From Bacteroidota bacterium (GTDB taxonomy: Bacteria > Bacteroidota > Bacteroidia > Cytophagales > Cyclobacteriaceae), in the NCBI GenBank assembly GCA_027593175.1, contig JAQCJI010000014.1, forward strand, positions 1 through 47,871: a stretch of DNA of 47,871 bases, written 5' to 3'. A program made the translations under genes and the position numbers. Numbering within the stretch: position 1 is the first letter of the stretch; each line of letters starts with the position of its first letter. Shown piece by piece: positions 11,771-47,484 of this stretch. The notes below the pieces were generated by a model that worked only from the letters and a program-made list of their open reading frames with translations, was not told where the DNA came from and did no database searches.

Positions 11771-13538
11771 GAATTTGTTGATCTTTAATTTTCTGCGCTA
11801 GGGAATCGGAACCTTCGGGACTTTCTTTTGCCTTTTTCCACCATCCAACAGCTTCTTCTGCCTTGCCTAAGCGAAACAAAACATCTCCAAAATGCTCCAT
11901 CAAAACCCCGCTTGGCTCTTTTTCGATTTTTATTGCTTCTTCTAGGTACAAAGCCGCTTCCGAATACCGTTTTAACTGGTATAAAACCCAAGCCAAGGTA
12001 TCCAAGTAGGTAGCATTTTTAGGATTTTTTCTCACCACACGCTGAGCCATATCTAAGGCCTTTTCCAATTCTTGCTTGCCTAAAGCCAGAAAATAGGCAT
12101 AATTATTTAACACCTGCTCGTCAGTTGGATTGAGTGCCAAAGCCTTGTCAAAATTTATAAATGCGGCAGCTTGATCGCCAAGTTGATACAGGCTATTTCC
12201 TAAAGTACTGTAAGCTACCTGTGCCAGTTGTGGATTTTTTTCCGTGTTTAGCGTTAAGGCTGTTTCCAAGGCCTGAATTGCCGAGGAATCTTTCTTCTGT
12301 GCCGAAAGTATTACGCCCTCATAGAACCAAAATTCAGCACTTTCTGGGTACTCTTCTAGGGCAACACTAGTGTACCGAGCAACTTCCTCGTAGTTGCCAC
12401 CCTCGTCAAAAGAGTTGACAATCACCTCCTCCAACAATTTTTCGTTTTTGGGTTGAATAGCTATGGACTTCTTGTACATCGCAAGCGCTTCTTCCAACTT
12501 ATTTTCTGCTTTTCTTCGATTTCCAATCGCTTCAAATATAGCGGCATCTTCGGGATACACCTCTTTTAATAGGAGCTCCAACTTGTCGAGCAGCTTTTCT
12601 CGTTCCTCTGTTTTCATCTCCTGCAGAAGACCTTGAAATGCAGCAGCTTTGGAGGAAGGAGCTAAGTCTGGACTAGCGATTGCCTCCAAAAGAAAGGAAT
12701 TGGCTTCTGAGATTTGCCCCTTATGTTGGTAAAGCGTGTGGGCAGCCAGCTGAAGTTCTGGTTGGTTCGGATATTTCGTGATTTCCGTGTTGACCAACTG
12801 GATTGCTTGGTCCAACTTGGCATTATTATATAAAATTTCCACCAGCAAAAGCACATAATTAGGGTTGCCGGGGAAGGAAATAATTAATTTTTCCCCCTCT
12901 TCTATAGCTTTCCCTAGCTGATCTTTTCTTAGGTAAATGCGTTGCTTTTGGGCCGTGAAAGCTTCTCGTACTCCATAGAAGTCTTCAGCACGATCCAAAG
13001 CCACTAAGGCCTTATCAAATTCATTGGCATTTAAGTAGATGGATGCCAATTCCAAGTTGTACTGTTGGTTTTTGGTGGATGCAGTGGTCAATTTTTCCAA
13101 TAGAGCCGCCGCTTGCAAGGGCTGTTTTAAATTGGAATAGAGTTCCGCGACCATCAACACATAAAATAAATTATCGGGATCCCCAGCTGCCGCTTTCAGT
13201 GCATAAGGAAGCGCTTTCTCAGCTTGACTATTCTTAAGAAGTACCTCTGCTAGTTTGTAAGAAATGGCTGGCTCCTCAGGAGAAAATTCGCTTGCTTTCT
13301 CTAAATATCGGTAAGCCTTTTCTAAATCTCCCAGTACCAATGCCTTTTCTCCTTCAATAAAAAAACGGCTTGTATTTGCTGCTAATTCCTGTGCTTTGAG
13401 CTCTTTTTTGGATAAAGAATGCTGTGGGAATCCGGCTATCGGACCCCGAAAAAAAAGGCAAAGAAGAAGAAAAATGGGAGTGGCTCTCACTGAAGAATAG
13501 GATTTCAAATCGATTCTGCAAACATAGTGCCTTTTCAT
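11763..13538 (-). CDS. Secreted tetratricopeptide-repeat protein
   Basis: About 591 residues with a hydrophobic export signal (PIFLLLCLFFRGPIAGF) followed by at least ten TPR-like helix pairs. Clear examples are AYRYLEKASEFSPEEPAISYKLAE near the N-terminus, and EALAMYKKSIAIQPKNEKL and FINFDKALALNPTDEQVLNN toward the C-terminus. TPR arrays are protein-interaction scaffolds, so no specific partner can be named. Start choice is uncertain. The frame is open to an ATG at 13625, which would overlap the flippase gene; ATG 13538 avoids this, and GTG 13490 would give the most compact signal peptide. The next genes (DUF4292, EnvC-like) suggest envelope assembly. Confidence 0.85.
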   Translation of the reverse strand: MKRHYVCRIDLKSYSSVRATPIFLLLCLFFRGPIAGFPQHSLSKKELKAQELAANTSRFFIEGEKALVLGDLEKAYRYLEKASEFSPEEPAISYKLAEVLLKNSQAEKALPYALKAAAGDPDNLFYVLMVAELYSNLKQPLQAAALLEKLTTASTKNQQYNLELASIYLNANEFDKALVALDRAEDFYGVREAFTAQKQRIYLRKDQLGKAIEEGEKLIISFPGNPNYVLLLVEILYNNAKLDQAIQLVNTEITKYPNQPELQLAAHTLYQHKGQISEANSFLLEAIASPDLAPSSKAAAFQGLLQEMKTEEREKLLDKLELLLKEVYPEDAAIFEAIGNRRKAENKLEEALAMYKKSIAIQPKNEKLLEEVIVNSFDEGGNYEEVARYTSVALEEYPESAEFWFYEGVILSAQKKDSSAIQALETALTLNTEKNPQLAQVAYSTLGNSLYQLGDQAAAFINFDKALALNPTDEQVLNNYAYFLALGKQELEKALDMAQRVVRKNPKNATYLDTLAWVLYQLKRYSEAALYLEEAIKIEKEPSGVLMEHFGDVLFRLGKAEEAVGWWKKAKESPEGSDSLAQKIKDQQIHD

Positions 13539-19182: not shown

Positions 19183-20061
19183 ATGGAATCCAGTGTCTTG
19201 AACGAAATTTTTTTACCTTTTTCGCTAGCCGTGATCATGTTTGGCATGGGGCTTAGTTTGCGTATAGAAGACTTCAAGCGAATCTTGATCTATCCCAAAG
19301 CAGTTGGGATTGGGCTTCTCAATCAATTGGTACTCCTGCCCATCATCGCTTTTGGGATTGCAAAGGCATTTTCTCTTCCCTCTGAACTTGCAGTAGGGCT
19401 CATGATTTTAGCAGTGTGCCCAGGTGGAGCTACCTCCAATTTGATCACCCACCTGGCCAAGGGGGATTCTGCCTTGTCCATAACACTTACGGCCTTTTCT
19501 TCTTTGATTACGGTGTTTACGATTCCTTTCTTGGTCAACTTTTCCATCGCTCAGTTTATCCCTGGGGGCGAAGCAAAGCAGTTGGAAGTAGTGGATACCG
19601 TAGTGTCCGTCCTATTCATTACGCTTATTCCTGTAGCATTAGGAATGATTTTGCTGGCTAAAGCACCTGCTAGAGCCCAAAAATGGGATCAGCCTTTTCG
19701 AAAAATTTCTGCTGTGTTTTTCGTGGTTATTGTCCTCGCTTCTATTTTCAAGGAAAAAGAAAATCTAGTGGAGTACTTTATTGAAGTAGGACCCGCTTCC
19801 TTGGCTCTGAATCTAAGTACACTAGCAGTAAGCTTTGGAATGGCCAAATGGGCTGGACTATCCTTCCGTCAGGGATTGACGATTGCCATCGAATCGGGCA
19901 TTCAAAACGGCACACTTGGCATTACCATTGCGGCCACCCTTTTAGTGAACTCTGTGATGTCCATTCCATCCGCTATTTACAGTTTACTCATGTTTGGAAT
20001 AGCCGCATTGGTTATTCTTTGGGGAAATAAGGTAGCATCTGCTAGTAAAGCATCCACCTGA
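19183..20061 (+). CDS. Bile acid:sodium symporter (BASS) family transporter
   Basis: At 292 residues with nine to ten membrane segments, it matches the BASS fold: FSLAVIMFGMGLSLRIEDFK at the start, the Na+-site-like CPGGATSNLITHLAKGDSALS near residue 80, and the crossover ESGIQNGTLGITIAATLL near residue 245. Members carry organic acids such as bile acids, pyruvate or pantoate with sodium. The substrate cannot be told from sequence alone. It lies between the DUF819 gene and a small secreted protein gene and may share their transcript. A second, more distant BASS protein is at 46399. Confidence 0.9.
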   Translation: MESSVLNEIFLPFSLAVIMFGMGLSLRIEDFKRILIYPKAVGIGLLNQLVLLPIIAFGIAKAFSLPSELAVGLMILAVCPGGATSNLITHLAKGDSALSITLTAFSSLITVFTIPFLVNFSIAQFIPGGEAKQLEVVDTVVSVLFITLIPVALGMILLAKAPARAQKWDQPFRKISAVFFVVIVLASIFKEKENLVEYFIEVGPASLALNLSTLAVSFGMAKWAGLSFRQGLTIAIESGIQNGTLGITIAATLLVNSVMSIPSAIYSLLMFGIAALVILWGNKVASASKAST

Positions 20062-38770: not shown

Positions 38771-39166
38771 TTACAGTAGAATATCATAAACTTTAACTGA
38801 TTTCCAAAACAAGGAATATTTAGCAATAAACTCAAGGTGAAGGGGATCTTTTTGATAGGCATCTTGACCTGCTAATGAATCAAAAAAAAGGCTGCAGGAC
38901 ACATGAAAGCTATGGTCAACTACCTCTCTTTTCTCTGTGGGAGCAGGAACTCCTTGGTAAAATTGGGTCACATCTTTGCAGCGTCCAAGCATGGGAACCG
39001 CGTCACGAAGAAATTCTTCGATATCAGATTCCTTGTGTAACCAAAAATAAACTTGGTGAATGATTTTTTGCGTAGGCATAGGCGTAGAATAACTAAAAGG
39101 GATGGGTACTAAGCTTATCGCGCTTGCCGCTCCAAGGGTTTGAATAAATTTTCTTCTTGAATTCAT
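38771..39166 (-). CDS. Dabb (stress-responsive alpha/beta barrel) protein with Tat signal
   Basis: 131 residues. The N-terminus MNSRRKFIQTLGAASAISLV is a twin-arginine signal (SRRKF). The mature part is one Dabb domain: KIIHQVYFWLHKES, VTQFYQGVPAPT, DHSFHVSCSLFFDS and the conserved AYQKDPLHLEFIAKY with the metal- or substrate-contacting His. Dabb domains form small dimeric barrels; function here is unknown. It starts 224 bases upstream of the typA terminator and is followed by the S41 gene after 47 bases. Confidence 0.85.
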   Translation of the reverse strand: MNSRRKFIQTLGAASAISLVPIPFSYSTPMPTQKIIHQVYFWLHKESDIEEFLRDAVPMLGRCKDVTQFYQGVPAPTEKREVVDHSFHVSCSLFFDSLAGQDAYQKDPLHLEFIAKYSLFWKSVKVYDILL

Positions 39167-41588: not shown

Positions 41589-42539
41589 ATGGTAACCCCT
41601 AATTTAAAAATCAGTCTACTAGCGTTCTCTCTAAGTATGTTCTTAGGTTGTGCTCCGCTGTTTGCGCAACAGATTTCCAAGGAGGAGATGTTATTTCTAA
41701 CCCAGCAATGGAAAGGAGAAAGATATGAAGACGGTAGGCCCAAAGTGTCTGATGATCTTCTTAATAGGATGCGTCTCGTAACCCATGATGAAGCATGGGC
41801 TGTCATGAAAAATGCGGGTTACCTTTATCAATATACCGACGGTTGGGAAGTCATTAATCCGGACAGTATTTTGAGTGGAAGGGCAGTCACTGCGACCTTT
41901 ATCCCAGGTCGTCCAGATATCCATGATGCGATTGATGAACGTGGTAAAAAGGAGGGTAAGCGGGGACAAAATTCCTGGCCAGTGGATCTTTTAATTCCAA
42001 AAGATGTGTATGTCGCTGATCAGTTTGGAATCCAAATCAATGGTCCTACCATCGGAGACAATGTTGGGAATGCCATTTTTGCCAAAACTGGTAATGGCAT
42101 TGTCTATCATGGTGCCATTCGGGACATTGCCGGTTTAAAGGAAATGGGAGGGTTCACTTCTTATTTCAGTTCCTATCACCCCTCACATCACAATCAACCA
42201 GGAAATCTGAACACCATGTTGGTCGGGATCAACCAGCCCACTCGCATCAAACAGGCTACCGTGATGGCAGGGGATGTGGTATTGGGAAGAGATGGGGGTG
42301 TTTCCTTCATCCCCGCACATTTAGCAGAAAAGGTAGTTGTAACCTCTGAAATCGTCAGACTTCGAGACATGTTTGGTCATGAGCGATTGAGAGAAGGAAA
42401 ATATACAGCAGGACAAATTGATACAAGATGGTCGGATGATATCGAACGCGATTTTTCTCAATGGCTAAATGCGCATATTGATGAACTTCCAGTTCCAAAA
42501 TCACAAATTCAGGAACTTCTGAAAAATCGTACTTGGTAA
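41589..42539 (+). CDS. Exported RraA/HMG-aldolase family protein, first copy
   Basis: 316 residues with a signal sequence (SLLAFSLSMFLGCAPLFAQQ), so probably periplasmic; the LGC could be read as a weak lipobox. The RraA fold core is visible: PTIGDNVGNAIFAKTG (GDN at 156-158), the Arg-Asp pair in YHGAIRDIAGL (R178, D179), and AGDVVLGRDGGVSFIPAHL. In HMG/CHA aldolases this Arg-Asp pair binds metal and substrate and the enzyme splits 4-hydroxy-2-oxo acids to give pyruvate. An N-terminal WKGER-DGRPKVSDDLL block is shared with the second copy at 43849. RraA proper is a cytoplasmic RNase E inhibitor, which does not fit an exported protein. Followed by an enolase-superfamily gene after 17 bases. 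Confidence 0.88.
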   Translation: MVTPNLKISLLAFSLSMFLGCAPLFAQQISKEEMLFLTQQWKGERYEDGRPKVSDDLLNRMRLVTHDEAWAVMKNAGYLYQYTDGWEVINPDSILSGRAVTATFIPGRPDIHDAIDERGKKEGKRGQNSWPVDLLIPKDVYVADQFGIQINGPTIGDNVGNAIFAKTGNGIVYHGAIRDIAGLKEMGGFTSYFSSYHPSHHNQPGNLNTMLVGINQPTRIKQATVMAGDVVLGRDGGVSFIPAHLAEKVVVTSEIVRLRDMFGHERLREGKYTAGQIDTRWSDDIERDFSQWLNAHIDELPVPKSQIQELLKNRTW

Positions 42540-42556
42540 AATCAACCTAAAAATAG

Positions 42557-43831
42557 ATGGATAAATTAACAGAAAGTAGAAGATCCTTTTTTGCGAAAGG
42601 ACTTGGGTTGGCTGGAGCTGGCTTTTTAAGCACCTATGGTCAAGGCCTTGAGGCTGCTGTGGAAAGAACCCCCTCCGCTTCAAATCCCTCCGATTTGAAA
42701 ATAACGGATGTAAAATGTGGGTATGTTCGAGGTGCTGTATACGTTAAAGTCTATACCAACCAGGATGTTTGGGGTTGTGGAGAAGCAGTAGACGCGATTC
42801 AGGGTTCCTATTACCTAGTTAAAAGGCTTGGTGAACAGATTAAAGGGCAAAGCCCTCTCAACCCAAATAGAATAGCGGAGCAACTTAGAAAAGCAGCCTT
42901 TTTTGGGGGAGCACAAAGTGGGATGTTTGTTGCTGTGCTTACAGCTATAGAAACAGCACTTTGGGATTTAACAGGAAAAGTTTTTGGAGTACCTGTTTAT
43001 CAATTACTTGGGGGTAAATTCAGGGATAAAATCCGGGTCTATTGCGATACTGCCCTTTATACCTCAACTAATCCCACACCCGCAGATTATGCGATGGCCG
43101 CTAGGAATGCTGTTAATCGAGGCTATAATGCAGTCAAATTTGATGTAGATGATGCTCGCGATCCAAATAAATACGATCGCTTCAATTGGACAGCCAATCC
43201 AATGGAAATTGATCGAATGTACAATGCTATTGCGGCAGTACGTCAGGAAGTAGGGCCAAATATCGATGTCTGTGTTGATATGCATGGACGATACGATGCG
43301 GTCACGGGTTTGAAGATGGCCAAAATGTATGAAAATTTGAACCTTATGTGGCTGGAGGAGCCTGTTCCTGCAGACAATATCGAAGTTTACAAAAAAATAT
43401 CCCAAGAGACTTCAACTCCCATTTGTACAGGTGAGAATATTTACCTCGCTTATGGATTTACAAGGCTACTTTCCGAAAATGCGGTCGATATCATCATGCC
43501 AGACATTCAAAAAGCTGGTGGATTGGGAGAAGCTCAGCGAATAGCTAATTTGGCTAACCTGTATTATGTGCCTTTCTCTCCACATATGGTCGCTTCTTTT
43601 CTTGGCGCCATGGCGGCCTGTCACGTCTGCGCTTCAGTACCTAATTTCCAAATTATGGAATGGCAAATCTACATGGATACAGATCAGCTTTGGCAGGATA
43701 TCGTGACTTATGATGGTCCACGAACTAAAAATAGTTTTATCACCCTATCTGAAAAGCCAGGGATCGGTGTGGAAATTAATGAGGAGGGAATGAAAAAATA
43801 TGCCGTAAAAGGGGTTCCTTTTTTTGAATAA
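42557..43831 (+). CDS. Tat-exported enolase-superfamily (mandelate racemase/galactonate dehydratase-like) enzyme, first copy
   Basis: 424 residues. The start MDKLTESRRSFFAKGLGLAG is a twin-arginine signal (SRRSFF). Metal ligands expected for the superfamily are D241 (VDMHGR), E267 (WLEEPV) and E293 (TGENIY). H243 in DMHGR and H343 in PFSPH correspond to the two catalytic His of D-galactonate dehydratase, so dehydration of an acid sugar to a 2-keto-3-deoxy acid is the best guess. The second-strand motif reads KFD rather than KxK, arguing against mandelate racemase proper. Substrate is unknown. It lies 17 bases from each RraA-family neighbour. Confidence 0.9.
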   Translation: MDKLTESRRSFFAKGLGLAGAGFLSTYGQGLEAAVERTPSASNPSDLKITDVKCGYVRGAVYVKVYTNQDVWGCGEAVDAIQGSYYLVKRLGEQIKGQSPLNPNRIAEQLRKAAFFGGAQSGMFVAVLTAIETALWDLTGKVFGVPVYQLLGGKFRDKIRVYCDTALYTSTNPTPADYAMAARNAVNRGYNAVKFDVDDARDPNKYDRFNWTANPMEIDRMYNAIAAVRQEVGPNIDVCVDMHGRYDAVTGLKMAKMYENLNLMWLEEPVPADNIEVYKKISQETSTPICTGENIYLAYGFTRLLSENAVDIIMPDIQKAGGLGEAQRIANLANLYYVPFSPHMVASFLGAMAACHVCASVPNFQIMEWQIYMDTDQLWQDIVTYDGPRTKNSFITLSEKPGIGVEINEEGMKKYAVKGVPFFE

Positions 43832-43848
43832 TTAAAACCTAATCTACC

Positions 43849-44808
43849 ATGTCTAACTATTTAAAAATCAATTTTAAACAGATTTTTCTTCTACTCTTTG
43901 GTTTTGGGATGCTCTCTATTGCGGGAATTGCTCAGCAAGTAGGCTCTACACCAGAACAAATCCGCTTACTGACTTCAGAGTGGAGTGGTGAGCGATTCCC
44001 GGACGGAAGACCTAAAGTTTCTGATCAAATTTTGGAGCGCCTCAAGAATATTTCGATTGAAGAAGCTTGGGGAGTACTTCGAAATAAGGGCTTCAACAAT
44101 CAATACGAAGGGGATTGGCAGGTTATTTTGCCTGATTCTGTGATGACTGGTAGGGTGGTAACTGCACAATACATGCCTTTACGGCCTGATTTTGATAAGT
44201 ATATCAAAACATTAGGCGTGGAAAAAGAGGGGAGATCATCAAAAGGGGCTACCAACTCTTGGCCAATCGATATATTGATTAATGGAGACATCTATGTAGC
44301 GGATAGCTATGGGAAAATGGCTGATGGAACTTTGATCGGAGATAATTTGGGCAATTCTATCTATACCAGGTCGAATCGAGGAGTCATTTTTTACGGGTCG
44401 GTCAGAGACCAGGAAGGGCTTTCTGAAATCCAGGGTTTTAATGCCTGGGTTAAAGGGCAAGACCCTTCTTTTATCAGGGAAATGATGCTCACGTCGATCA
44501 ATGCCCCCATCCGAATAGGTCGTGCTACGGTCCTTCCGGGAGATGTGGTACTGGCAAAGAAGTATGGTGTTATTTTCATTCCTGCTCACATGGTCGAGGA
44601 CTTGGTCATTACTTCAGAAGTAACCGGTCTTCGCGATCATTTTGGTCATCAAAGACTTAGAGAGAAAAAATACCTAGCAGGACAGATTGATTCGGAATGG
44701 ACAGAGGAAATCAAGAAAGATTTTCTCAATTGGCTGGACAACTATCCCAGCAAACTTCCGATGACCAAGGCCGAACTCGATAATTATTTCAAAGAAAGAA
44801 ACTGGTAA
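43849..44808 (+). CDS. Exported RraA/HMG-aldolase family protein, second copy
   Basis: 319 residues, a diverged paralogue of the protein at 41589. The signal peptide IFLLLFGFGMLSIAGIAQQ predicts Sec export. Shared blocks are SGERFPDGRPKVSDQILERL, NSWPIDILINGDIYVADSYG, TLIGDNLGN (D165), the Arg-Asp pair in YGSVRDQEGL (R186, D187), LPGDVVLAKKYGVIFIPAH and LRDHFGHQRLREKKYLAGQID. Both copies keep the residues expected of an aldolase. Divergence of the middle regions suggests different substrates rather than a recent duplication. Confidence 0.88.
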   Translation: MSNYLKINFKQIFLLLFGFGMLSIAGIAQQVGSTPEQIRLLTSEWSGERFPDGRPKVSDQILERLKNISIEEAWGVLRNKGFNNQYEGDWQVILPDSVMTGRVVTAQYMPLRPDFDKYIKTLGVEKEGRSSKGATNSWPIDILINGDIYVADSYGKMADGTLIGDNLGNSIYTRSNRGVIFYGSVRDQEGLSEIQGFNAWVKGQDPSFIREMMLTSINAPIRIGRATVLPGDVVLAKKYGVIFIPAHMVEDLVITSEVTGLRDHFGHQRLREKKYLAGQIDSEWTEEIKKDFLNWLDNYPSKLPMTKAELDNYFKERNW

Positions 44809-44834
44809 AAATTACATAATCAACCAACAAAACC

Positions 44835-46319
44835 ATGAAAAGCACCTTACAAAAACTAATCTCCGAACATAAAGGAGCGGAGAGAGCGTGTGCCCAGCAG
44901 CGGCAGGCAGAAATAGATAATCCCTTAACTGGATCCAATCGAAGAGATTTTTTGAAAAAAACTGCACTTGGAGGTTTTAGCCTTGCCGCTCTGACGGGAC
45001 TAGGTATTGAAGACACGCTTGCTCAAACTACCCGATCTATAAAAAGAGCTTCTGCTCCATCGGATCTCAAAATAACCGATCTAAGATATGCCCATACAGC
45101 TGTAATGGGTGGTACAGCTATTTTACGTATTGACACCAACCAGGGAATTGTGGGTTGGGGAGAAGTAAGAGATGGTGCTGATCCTCGGTATGCCTTGATG
45201 CTGAAAAGCAGAATTCTTGGTGAAAATCCATGCAACGTAGAGAAAATCTTCAAAATTATCCGTCAGTTTGGAGGGCAATCCAGACAAGCTGGTGGAGTTT
45301 GTGGTGTAGAAATGGCACTTTGGGATCTTTGTGGAAAAGCTTACAATGTGCCTGCTTGGCAGCTCCTCGGTGGACGTTACCGTGACTCTGTTCGTCTCTA
45401 TGCTGATACACCAGAGGGAAAAGATCCTGAAGAGCAAAAAGAAAGAATCCGCTACCGCATTCAAGATCAAGGATATACCTGGCTAAAAATGGACGTTTCT
45501 ATCGGTGAAATCATGGATATTCCCGGCTGCATCGTGAATCCCGAAATTTTAAAAGGGAATCGTTCTCAGTGGTCCGGTGGGTACATGTCTTATGCCAATA
45601 CTGCACATCCTTTTACTGGAATTCAGATTACCGAAAAAGGACTTGATGAACTAGCCAAAATTGTCCATAATATCCGAGAAATGGTGGGCTATGATGTTCC
45701 TATGTCCACCGATCACTATGGGCATTTTGATTTAAATAACTGTATTCGCTTGGGCAAAGCGTTGGAGCCCTATCGATTGGCTTGGCTAGAGGATATGGTG
45801 CCTTGGCAAATGACACAGCAGCACAAAACCATCACGCAGGCATTGGAAACACCAACTACCACTGGAGAAGATATTTACCTACTCAATTATTTCAAGCCTT
45901 TGATTGATGAGCATGCTGTAGATATCATCCATCCTGACCTGGCCTCTTCTGGAGGCCTTTTGGAAACCAAACGAATTGGGGATTATGCAGAGGAAAAAGG
46001 GATATCCATGGCCATACACCAGGCTGGAACGCCTGTATCCTTTATGGCAAGTGTTCATTGCGCGGCAGCTACTCAAAATTTTCTTTCCCTTGAGCACCAT
46101 TCCGTTGATGTTCCTTGGTGGGAATCCATGTTTACCAAGGTAGATGGGGTGAAAATGATTGATAAAGGTTATGCACCGGTACCTTTGACAGCACCAGGAT
46201 TAGGAATTGAAATCAATGAGGAAGTGGTGAAAGTCCATTTGCACAAGTCAGATTCCAGCTATTTCGCACCTACCGACCAGTGGAATGAAAAGCGATCTCA
46301 CGATAGAACCTATAGTTAA
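44835..46319 (+). CDS. Tat-exported enolase-superfamily enzyme, second copy
   Basis: 494 residues. About 34 residues precede the twin-arginine motif NRRDFLKKTALGGF, so the signal is internal, as in many Bacteroidota exported oxidoreductases; a later start is possible but no good one exists just before it. Expected metal ligands are D293 (TDHYGHFD), E319 (WLEDMV) and E345 (TGEDIY). Nearby His are H294, H297 and H395 (AIHQAG). SDLKITDLRYAHTAVMGG matches the copy at 42557 (SDLKITDVKCGY). It is a paralogue with an altered substrate pocket; likely an acid-sugar dehydratase or racemase. A terminator follows. Confidence 0.88.
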   Translation: MKSTLQKLISEHKGAERACAQQRQAEIDNPLTGSNRRDFLKKTALGGFSLAALTGLGIEDTLAQTTRSIKRASAPSDLKITDLRYAHTAVMGGTAILRIDTNQGIVGWGEVRDGADPRYALMLKSRILGENPCNVEKIFKIIRQFGGQSRQAGGVCGVEMALWDLCGKAYNVPAWQLLGGRYRDSVRLYADTPEGKDPEEQKERIRYRIQDQGYTWLKMDVSIGEIMDIPGCIVNPEILKGNRSQWSGGYMSYANTAHPFTGIQITEKGLDELAKIVHNIREMVGYDVPMSTDHYGHFDLNNCIRLGKALEPYRLAWLEDMVPWQMTQQHKTITQALETPTTTGEDIYLLNYFKPLIDEHAVDIIHPDLASSGGLLETKRIGDYAEEKGISMAIHQAGTPVSFMASVHCAAATQNFLSLEHHSVDVPWWESMFTKVDGVKMIDKGYAPVPLTAPGLGIEINEEVVKVHLHKSDSSYFAPTDQWNEKRSHDRTYS

Positions 46320-46332
46320 TTTAAGCTATTCC

Positions 46333-46368
46333 TCCCCCTACCATTATTTAAGGGGGAAGATTTTTTTT
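46333..46368 (+). terminator. Intrinsic terminator after the RraA-enolase genes
   Basis: The stem TCCCCCT (46333-46339) with AGGGGGA (46351-46357) has an 11-base loop and is followed by eight T (46361-46368). It separates the four enzyme genes from the transporter gene, which starts 31 bases later. Read-through or a separate promoter would be needed for the latter. Confidence 0.7.
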
Positions 46369-46398
46369 ATTTACTTTCCCTTATAATCCATTCTCATC

Positions 46399-47484
46399 TT
46401 GAACTCCAAATCACGCATCTTTCTATACCTGGCTATTGCATTATTGCTTTGCTTGATTTACACCATTCCAGCTGGCTTTCAGGTAGGAACGGGTTTAATT
46501 GCTGTTGGTTTTTTTCTTTTTATCGGCCTTTTTTTTCGTGGAAATGAGCAACTGAAAGGCTTTTCTTTTTCGGTTGTTATTTTCACAGTAGTAGCCTTGG
46601 CGATGTTTTTTCCTCTGTATTTCCAGGAAATTAACGGCTTTAAGCTTACTCAATTAATTAATCCACTGATTCAAATGATCATGTTTGGTATGGGGGCTAC
46701 ATTAAGCTGGAAGGATTTTGCAGCAGTTGCCCAAAGTCCCAAATCAGTCGCTATTGGTATTGTAGCACAGTTTGCCATCATGCCATTGGTTGGGTTTGTA
46801 CTGACTAATCTAAGTGGGCTTGAGCCTGAAGTTGCCGCTGGAATTATATTGGTTGGTTGTGCCCCTGGAGGAACTGCCTCCAATGTGATTGCTTTTCTAG
46901 CCCGTGCCAATGTGGCTTTATCAGTGACACTTACTACCATTTCAACCCTTCTTGCTCCCTTTATGATGCCTGTCTTGATGAAATTACTGGCAGGACAATT
47001 CATTGAGATTGACCTTCTCAAAATGATGTGGGATATTTTTAAAATCATTTTGCTTCCAGTAGGAGCTGGTTTGCTCGTACATCAACTTTTAGGTAAAAAT
47101 TCTGGATGGATTGAAAAACTCCTTCCACTAGTTTCCATGCTCGGTATTGCTTTGATTATTTTGGTGATTACTGCAGCTGGAAGAGATAGCCTTTTGGCTA
47201 TGGGTCCAATTTTAATTTTGATCGTGTTCCTACACAATATGATGGGTTATGGTATAGGCTATGTTTTAGCCCGATTAATTGGTCTCAGTGAACAGGATGC
47301 CCGAACTATTTCCATTGAGGTTGGAATGCAAAATGCCGGATTAGCTTCAGGGCTTTCAAGTATTATGGGGAAAATCACTACGCTAGGATTGGCTTCTGCA
47401 GTGTTTGGGCCCATGCAAAATATTACTGGATCGATTGTGGCTACTTTCTGGAGCAAAAGAAAAAAAGGAATTGAACCTAGTTGA
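46399..47484 (+). CDS. Bile acid:sodium symporter (BASS) family transporter, second type
   Basis: 361 residues from a TTG start; no ATG gives a better start. An N-terminal extension of two or three membrane segments (IFLYLAIALLLCLIYTIPAG, VGFFLFIGLFF) precedes the BASS core. The core shows MFGMGATLSWKDFAAVAQ, CAPGGTASNVIAFLARANVALS (Na+ site region) and the crossover SIEVGMQNAGLASGLSSIMG. BASS proteins import organic anions, including pyruvate, with sodium. Placement after two aldolase/dehydratase pairs suggests it takes up their product, but the intervening terminator weakens an operon claim. Confidence 0.9.
   Translation: MNSKSRIFLYLAIALLLCLIYTIPAGFQVGTGLIAVGFFLFIGLFFRGNEQLKGFSFSVVIFTVVALAMFFPLYFQEINGFKLTQLINPLIQMIMFGMGATLSWKDFAAVAQSPKSVAIGIVAQFAIMPLVGFVLTNLSGLEPEVAAGIILVGCAPGGTASNVIAFLARANVALSVTLTTISTLLAPFMMPVLMKLLAGQFIEIDLLKMMWDIFKIILLPVGAGLLVHQLLGKNSGWIEKLLPLVSMLGIALIILVITAAGRDSLLAMGPILILIVFLHNMMGYGIGYVLARLIGLSEQDARTISIEVGMQNAGLASGLSSIMGKITTLGLASAVFGPMQNITGSIVATFWSKRKKGIEPS

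Follow-up and report, generated by a model that had tools for sequence, protein, structure and literature searches.

What could two consecutive pairs of genes, each encoding an RraA-fold protein and a mandelate racemase (MR)-like protein of the enolase superfamily, do for a member of the Bacteroidota when all four proteins appear to be exported and a gene for a BASS-family transporter follows them? This question is raised by positions 41589 to 47484 of a stretch of 47,871 nucleotides (hereafter the window), which is contig C30 of a draft genome of 2.49 Mb that is 83.5% complete. All five genes lie on the forward strand: RraA1 (41589-42539, 316 amino acids), a predicted class II lyase of the pyruvate aldolase/decarboxylase type; MR1 (42557-43831, 424 amino acids), a predicted acid-sugar dehydratase with a D-x-H-G-R motif; RraA2 (43849-44808, 319 amino acids), a second exported-looking RraA-fold protein assigned by Pfam, by identity to RraA1 and by its place in the tree; MR2 (44835-46319, 494 amino acids), a second exported-looking enolase-superfamily protein with a long N-terminal region ahead of its twin-arginine motif; and the transporter (46399-47484, 361 amino acids, TTG start), assigned by Pfam SBF and predicted to import a 2-oxo acid product. 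Our answer, to which we give a probability of about 0.5, is that together these genes specify a route outside the cytoplasm for breaking down sugar acids by lyases, with dehydration by MR, cleavage by RraA and import of the resulting 2-oxo acid by BASS. At the level of sequence, this proposal is supported by predicted twin-arginine (Tat)-type MR and Sec-type RraA pre-proteins, by kept catalytic residues and by conserved co-occurrence.

The open reading frames (ORFs) and the Pfam matches bear out the arrangement that had been read from the sequence alone, namely two pairs with spacings of 17 to 26 bases and an adjacent BASS gene; the four intergenic spacers are 17, 17, 26 and 79 bases. RraA1 and RraA2 score 49 and 58.3 bits against the RraA-like family (PF03737, gathering cut-off 24.5), MR1 and MR2 score 207 and 153 bits against MR_MLE_C and 40 and 42 bits against MR_MLE_N, and the transporter scores 153.8 bits against SBF (cut-off 24.3). 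Its scores with NCBIfam models are below the cut-offs (TIGR00841, 244.6 versus 326.3; PanS, 220.1 versus 400). The window pair RraA1 and RraA2 were the only PF03737 genes found in the draft genome. Identity is 46% between RraA1 and RraA2 and 35% between MR1 and MR2, and they are therefore old paralogues; a recent tandem duplication of the pair was rejected on these values and on the separate clades in the tree. Six GTDB records whose RraA1 is 87-98% identical to that of the window have all five genes in an unchanged order, three of them titled Spirosoma fluviale metagenome-assembled genomes (L033, L034, L045), one Cyclobacteriaceae (L035) and two Algoriphagus (L036, L037). The loci of the first three are 97-98% identical to the Algoriphagus-like window and that of Spirosoma fluviale DSM 29961 (L093) just 67%, and the Spirosoma fluviale titles of these three genomes appear to be wrong.

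Export of the MR proteins is well supported by their predicted signals. MR1 carries SRRSFF in its putative Tat signal region (42557-42658, forward strand) and MR2 carries NRRDFLKK, with the motif and h-region at residues 35-56 (44937-45002, forward strand), each motif being followed by a mildly hydrophobic segment. With an RR-x-F/I/L motif, an h-region and a TatC encoded in the window genome (213 bits), the MR proteins class as predicted Tat substrates. In 80 GTDB loci (the best 80 of at least 530 relatives in the contig scan, a set biased to close relatives), RR-x-[FIL] is present within the first 80 residues of 117 of the 118 MR genes, and the lone miss is a deletion fusion in Algoriphagus boritolerans (L065; L113 is the same genome). 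There, the second pair is one ORF of 220 amino acids (12252-12914) that begins as RraA2 and finishes as MR2, which would fit a deletion of the middle, and RraA1, MR1 and BASS are still present. A stricter Tat rule was applied to MR proteins of more than 300 amino acids from the window, the 80 loci and 32 stretches drawn from an even sample of the phylum; 146 of 147 passed, versus 35 of the 765 remaining ORFs in these loci, and the one MR that failed (L144) is a distinct protein that does not belong to the pair.

The RraA proteins begin with hydrophobic segments ending in FAQQ and IAQQ, which would be Sec-type signal peptides of approximately residues 1-26 in RraA1 (41589-41666) and 1-28 in RraA2 (43849-43932), both on the forward strand and before QQ. 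A hydrophobic N-terminus ahead of the mature domain was found in 118 of the 121 RraA of the 80 loci, and two of the three misses begin at a contig edge. A crude Sec rule was passed by 147 of 154 RraA but also by 435 of 765 (57%) background ORFs, and is therefore weak when used alone. For this reason, RraA export is argued from the N-terminal extension, which is missing from the MR-paired RraA of Rhizobium and from proteins resembling FlDet, an RraA-like enzyme of Flavobacterium sp. UMI-01 discussed below; on this basis the predicted export of RraA is fairly supported. The Sec signals on both RraA and the twin-arginine signals on both MR that the sequence-only reading had described are thus upheld by the N-termini, the Tat rule and TatC.

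The pairing extends far beyond the window. In the even sample of 395 Bacteroidota genomes (matches at E <= 1e-20), the RraA family is present in 24, the window genome included. Within 5 kb of an RraA locus in these carriers lie at least 32 of 157 MR_MLE genes, with 0.53 expected, and 18 of 58 SBF genes, with 0.2 expected (genome sizes were rounded for this test); co-occurrence of RraA with MR and with BASS is far beyond chance. Among the matches listed there are 33 RraA loci in the 24 genomes, of which 25 have MR within 5 kb, four have genes for a DgaE-family lyase and an amidohydrolase, and four have neither (one on a contig of 4.6 kb). When RraA genes were typed by their best match to either window protein, so that the RraA2 type takes in lineages outside the window RraA2 clade, an MR neighbour was found for 76 of 79 RraA1-type and 35 of 42 RraA2-type genes in the 80 loci, and for 11 of 11 and 12 of 23 in the 32 stretches of the even sample, where another 4 of the 23 have DgaE/amidohydrolase neighbours. 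A plasmid scan returned 29 records, all with less than 60% identity. The sequence-only reading had been made to depend on the pair not being confined to this genome, and the neighbourhood search found it across many Bacteroidota genomes.

Both window RraA, and 111 of the 121 RraA in the 80 loci, contain D/E-x20-R-D, which we take to be the defining motif of HMG/CHA-type class II pyruvate aldolases. By a profile of 38 exported RraA, D157, R178 and D179 of RraA1 align with D102, R123 and D124 of the Pseudomonas putida HMG/CHA aldolase (3NOJ). That aldolase resembles RraA1 in fold and in these D/R/D residues and differs in having 18% identity to it, a role in aromatic catabolism and no signal peptide. 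Its Arg-123 stabilises the pyruvate enolate, and Asp-124 and Glu-199 bind the metal (PMC5065237). The alignments hold RraA of at least 200 bits (in the sample also at least 200 amino acids) and MR of at least 150 bits and 300 amino acids; among the 157 RraA, R178 is kept in 157, D179 in 156 and D157 in 142. The AlphaFold2 model of RraA1 (mean pLDDT 89.2) matched 5x15_B (TMt 0.90) and 3noj (TMt 0.68) in Foldseek. Scores of RraA1 and RraA2 with aldolase models are below the cut-offs (TIGR02798, 31.7 and 50.4 versus 304.5; NF006731, 34.8 and 50.5 versus 179), as are those with the related subfamily model NF006093 (66.9 and 90.7 versus 208); RraA1 extends past the stretch that matches this last model by about 50 residues on the N-terminal side, its signal among them, and by 24 on the C-terminal side. 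RraA1 is described here as a predicted metal-dependent lyase of the class II pyruvate aldolase/decarboxylase type. A quick tree of 44 exported RraA, clustered at 78%, and 15 others (of which L162, L163 and L168 look exported) placed the pair-type exported RraA in one clade (SH-aLRT 100) with an RraA1 group (100) and an RraA2 group (97); its joins to other RraA families are on long branches and unsure. A second family of exported-looking RraA (L161, L162, L163, L168; 257-293 amino acids with signal-like N-termini) has no D-x20-R-D and lies outside the pair clade. Furthermore, in one locus (L114, G049:C17:126120-127051) RraA is spread over two overlapping matches, one with an internal TGA, a broken or mis-assembled copy adjoining MR1.

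In the MR proteins, K194, D241, E267, E293, D316, H343 and E368 are each kept in 147 of 148 aligned sequences, the odd sequence having a gap at K194, D241, D316, H343 and E368 and substitutions at E267 and E293. In MR1 the conserved set is K194-x-D196, the metal ligands D241/E267/E293, the dyad D316-H343 and E368, with roles that we take to be those of the enolase superfamily in general; the N- and C-terminal MR_MLE domains, the three acidic ligands and the catalytic His place the proteins in its mandelate racemase-like part. Position 243 is His in 95 of the 148 sequences, as in D-M-H-G-R of MR1; MR2 has D-H-Y-G-H there and is without this strand-3 His, and therefore the two active sites differ. 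The earlier claim that catalytic positions are kept in all four proteins holds for D-x20-R-D of RraA and for the ligands and the D-H dyad of MR, and fails for the strand-3 His of MR2. The best NCBIfam model is galactonate dehydratase PRK14017 (MR1 241.2 and MR2 186.3 versus a cut-off of 311), the other dehydratase models listed (mannonate, gluconate) being further below their cut-offs; the nearest structures are those of the galactonate/gluconate/mannonate dehydratase group, and the AlphaFold2 model of MR2 (mean pLDDT 77.5) matched 2qq6_A (TMt 0.87). Thus, the window MR proteins share domains, metal ligands and the D-H dyad with enolase-superfamily acid-sugar dehydratases (galactonate PRK14017, ManD, gluconate) and differ in scores below the listed cut-offs, in Tat-type export and, for MR2, in the missing strand-3 His. 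Additional MR paralogues were also seen: Aquiflexum-type loci (L038, L043, L044, L046, L053) have an extra Tat-type MR of 428 amino acids between RraA1 and MR1, and the last genes of Larkinella xylan loci (L073, L075, L080, L103) encode a xylose-isomerase-like TIM barrel with a signal and a divergent Tat-type MR (459-463 amino acids).

What RraA would act on is suggested most strongly by loci in which its partner has been exchanged. In 4 of the 24 genomes (L124, L125, L126, L132), RraA stands without MR and with a DgaE-family pyridoxal phosphate (PLP)-dependent lyase and an amidohydrolase of the PRK09237/EF_0837 kind, accompanied by BASS in all four and by RidA in three; both sets occur together in L101 and L111. 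The alternative partners also look exported, with an RR motif in 8 of 9 DgaE (the remaining copy is truncated at the end of its stretch), RR in five of six RidA copies and RK in one, and Sec-like N-termini by eye in 10 of 10 amidohydrolases. In contrast to DgaE of the D-glucosaminate-6-phosphate pathway, of whose ammonia-lyase family they are members, the DgaE copies beside exported RraA have Tat-like N-termini, score below the model cut-offs and come with an amidohydrolase and mostly RidA. On acid sugars, DgaE-type lyases eliminate ammonia and MR dehydratases eliminate water across adjacent carbons, and both yield 2-keto-3-deoxy acids. Since RraA is the constant member, it would most simply act on this common product, an inference that we regard as the strongest functional argument.

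The acid-sugar setting proposed by the sequence-only reading is borne out in relatives of the window. Neighbour families in same-strand runs were annotated from one scanned member per cluster (30 representatives; single-member clusters and six small ones were left unannotated). At least one of GH67, GH115, the glucuronoyl esterase CE15, UxuA or UxaC was found in 15 of the 80 loci, 14 of them from Spirosoma, Larkinella or Fibrisoma, in which the RraA1-MR1 module lies inside glucuronoxylan side-chain loci. An FGGY kinase occurs in 10 loci, nine with an AraC regulator, and one scanned member is gluconokinase-like (424 bits versus a cut-off of 649); a pyrroloquinoline quinone (PQQ) dehydrogenase occurs in 3. 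The same-strand runs contain SusC in 29 loci, SusD2 in 28, an extracytoplasmic function (ECF) sigma factor in 18 and BASS in 41, and of these neighbour genes of the relatives the window operon has BASS only. Small DUF4440 proteins were found in 12 loci, and in an alphaproteobacterium the genes for RraA and mannonate dehydratase flank an NTF2-like gene (the operons concerned include L060, L077, L082, L092 and L147); these small proteins may add another enzyme to the route.

Taken in order, the proposed route would run as follows. Each MR would fold in the cytoplasm, leave it by way of Tat and dehydrate an acid sugar of the aldonate or uronate type, giving a 2-keto-3-deoxy acid. The partner RraA, as a divalent-metal class II lyase, would then break the C3-C4 bond of this acid, releasing an aldehyde together with pyruvate or some other small 2-oxo acid, and BASS would import the 2-oxo acid along with Na+. 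The two pairs may serve two related acids or stereo-series. Because SusC is in the operon of 29 of the 80 relatives, substrate entry in these is predicted to be via SusC/SusD. The inferred parts of this scheme are its substrates, the reaction of RraA and the cargo of BASS. The exported dehydratase-plus-aldolase route of the sequence-only reading is partly supported: it retains its export signals, its pairing in multiple genomes, its acid-sugar context and its catalytic residues, and has to be amended for MR2, whose active site is unlike that of MR1.

Several observations weigh against this scheme. All five proteins fall short of the thresholds of the NCBIfam models listed for them, the Sec calls depend on a weak rule, and the first Asp of the RraA motif is lost in 15 of 157 sequences. 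No ORF for SusC/SusD was found in the window operon or directly beside it. In the even sample, 7 of 23 RraA2-type genes have neither an MR nor a DgaE neighbour, and the RraA family is absent from two genomes of the same genus and is therefore accessory. A KDPG-type aldolase family gene (PF01081) is present in 24 of 24 carriers; replacement of the cytoplasmic Entner-Doudoroff aldolase by an exported route was rejected for this reason. Signals are missing from the UxuA, UxaC and SDR members shown for the glucuronoxylan loci, and therefore a cytoplasmic glucuronate route runs in parallel; UxuA copies with a signal were seen in L052, L129 (two) and L140. Finally, FlDet did not act on 2-keto-3-deoxygluconate (KDG; PMC8563752).

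FlDet is also the basis of the alternative that survives best, although we consider it rather unlikely: the route is exported, and RraA is a FlDet-like dehydratase/decarboxylase that converts a 2-keto-3-deoxy aldarate or pentonate to alpha-ketoglutarate semialdehyde, which is imported by BASS or another carrier and oxidised to alpha-ketoglutarate by an aldehyde dehydrogenase. FlDet is an RraA-like dehydratase/decarboxylase of 2-keto-3-deoxy-D-glucarate, has 237 amino acids with a sequenced native N-terminus and no signal, and is encoded in a gene that flanks an alginate lyase gene (PMC8563752). It is like the window RraA in being RraA-like, from the Bacteroidota and active on a 2-keto-3-deoxy sugar acid, and it was the one characterised RraA-like sugar-acid enzyme of the Bacteroidota that we found in the open-licence literature. 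However, its look-alikes L155, L156 and L158, which were judged by the N-terminus printed in that paper, have S-x20-R-D, as opposed to the D-x20-R-D that most exported RraA share with HMG/CHA aldolase. They fall in another clade with alphaproteobacterial RraA (the deep branches being long and poorly supported), and orthology of the window RraA with FlDet is not supported. Alphaproteobacterial RraA genes adjoin NADP aldehyde dehydrogenases, and an aldehyde dehydrogenase cluster adjoins an FAH-family gene in the Bacteroidota, where the scanned member matches 2,5-dioxovalerate/alpha-ketoglutarate semialdehyde dehydrogenase models best, far below their cut-offs; but this cluster was found in only 3 of 80 same-strand runs, in which once-only neighbours were unannotated, and the window operon has no such gene.

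Alternatively, MR may be epimerases, racemases or cycloisomerases and RraA a decarboxylase, acting in the periplasm on an acid that is not a dehydrated sugar acid, such as a keto acid that comes from lignin or aromatics. Racemases belong to the MR family, Lys and His bases are both present in the aligned MR, and RraA relatives such as LigK work in aromatic catabolism; yet the nearest MR models (below cut-off) and structures are dehydratases, the genes annotated nearby are for glycosides, uronates and gluconate, and the 30 scanned representatives include no ring-cleavage gene, which makes this explanation improbable. It is very improbable that exported RraA has no enzyme activity and instead binds MR or serves it as a scaffold, in the manner of E. 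coli RraA towards RNase E. Regulators do occur in the family, and 15 of 157 exported sequences miss the first motif Asp; against this, R178 and D179 are all but invariant, the partners of RraA swap between MR and the DgaE set, and RNase E is cytoplasmic. For RraA, the reading as an RNase E regulator is likewise disfavoured, the aldolase motif being mostly kept and the proteins looking exported. That all the proteins remain in the cytoplasm behind mis-annotated starts or cryptic N-termini is the least probable case, for although the export calls come from sequence rules and the Sec rule is permissive, the Tat rule separates MR from background, TatC is present, and the MR-paired (Rhizobium) and FlDet-like relatives of RraA are without hydrophobic N-termini.

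The chemistry of the proposed extracytoplasmic route has counterparts inside the cell. Two Rhizobium plasmids (L146, L149) carry MR followed by RraA in an ABC sugar-transport operon, both proteins being without signals and RraA having D-x20-R-D; the L146 proteins are covered by the NF010624 and NF006093 models from residues 6 and 7. The adjacent MR and RraA genes are alike in Rhizobium and the window; the Rhizobium set differs in the absence of signal peptides, in ABC uptake, in having one pair and in its MR-RraA order. In other alphaproteobacteria, AraD is followed directly by RraA, with an aldehyde dehydrogenase, in Gemmobacter; one gene lies between the two in Alloyangia; and Terrarubrum has AraD-RraA and, nearby, RraA, the NTF2-like gene and mannonate dehydratase. 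These signal-less genes agree with the earlier remark that both reactions normally occur in the cytoplasm, and the window set is therefore a relocated variant of known chemistry, in which the location and the modular assembly are what is new. Sugar and acid lyase chemistry outside the cytoplasm is represented by periplasmic 3-keto-glycoside lyases of Bacteroides and by the quinate/dehydroquinate enzymes of acetic acid bacteria, which have other folds and catalyse other reactions. We know of no aldolase step in these systems, and to our knowledge the cytoplasm is regarded as the place where sugar acids undergo C-C cleavage and lyase steps that eliminate ammonia or water. In the open-licence literature, where absence is weak evidence, no paper was found on RraA-MR pairing, on periplasmic RraA, on RraA-like aldolases with a signal peptide in Bacteroidetes, or linking RraA with glucuronate or mannonate dehydratase; the accessible part of a paper on exported enolase superfamily proteins and Tat (PMC5507952) does not mention RraA. 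In the same literature, titles and the starts of abstracts yielded no paper on the fate of 4-O-methylglucuronate released from xylan.

Elsewhere in the window, a small, exported-looking Dabb protein (stress-responsive A/B barrel), whose N-terminus is likewise Tat-like (NSRRKFIQTLGAAS), is encoded just upstream at 38771-39166 on the reverse strand, and a second BASS-family gene lies away from RraA at 19183-20061 on the forward strand.

The exported pairing across the phylum suggests that some acid sugars are taken apart in the cell envelope and not inside the cell. More tentatively, the Bacteroidota may possess a modular extracytoplasmic sugar-acid metabolism, in which exchangeable exported front ends (MR, or amidohydrolase with DgaE and RidA) would produce 2-keto-3-deoxy acids that exported RraA would split, the small oxo acid alone being imported by BASS; in the glucuronoxylan loci, MR1 could, by beta-elimination beside the carboxylate, release the 4-O-methyl group of methylglucuronate in the form of methanol. 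Such a route offers testable candidates for the fate of the 4-O-methylglucuronate released from xylan. If true, there would be functions for exported proteins that are now named RraA, mandelate racemase, DgaE and RidA, and a Tat-dependent envelope route with PLP and Mg enzymes would redraw carbon flow for a phylum that is prominent in polysaccharide breakdown.

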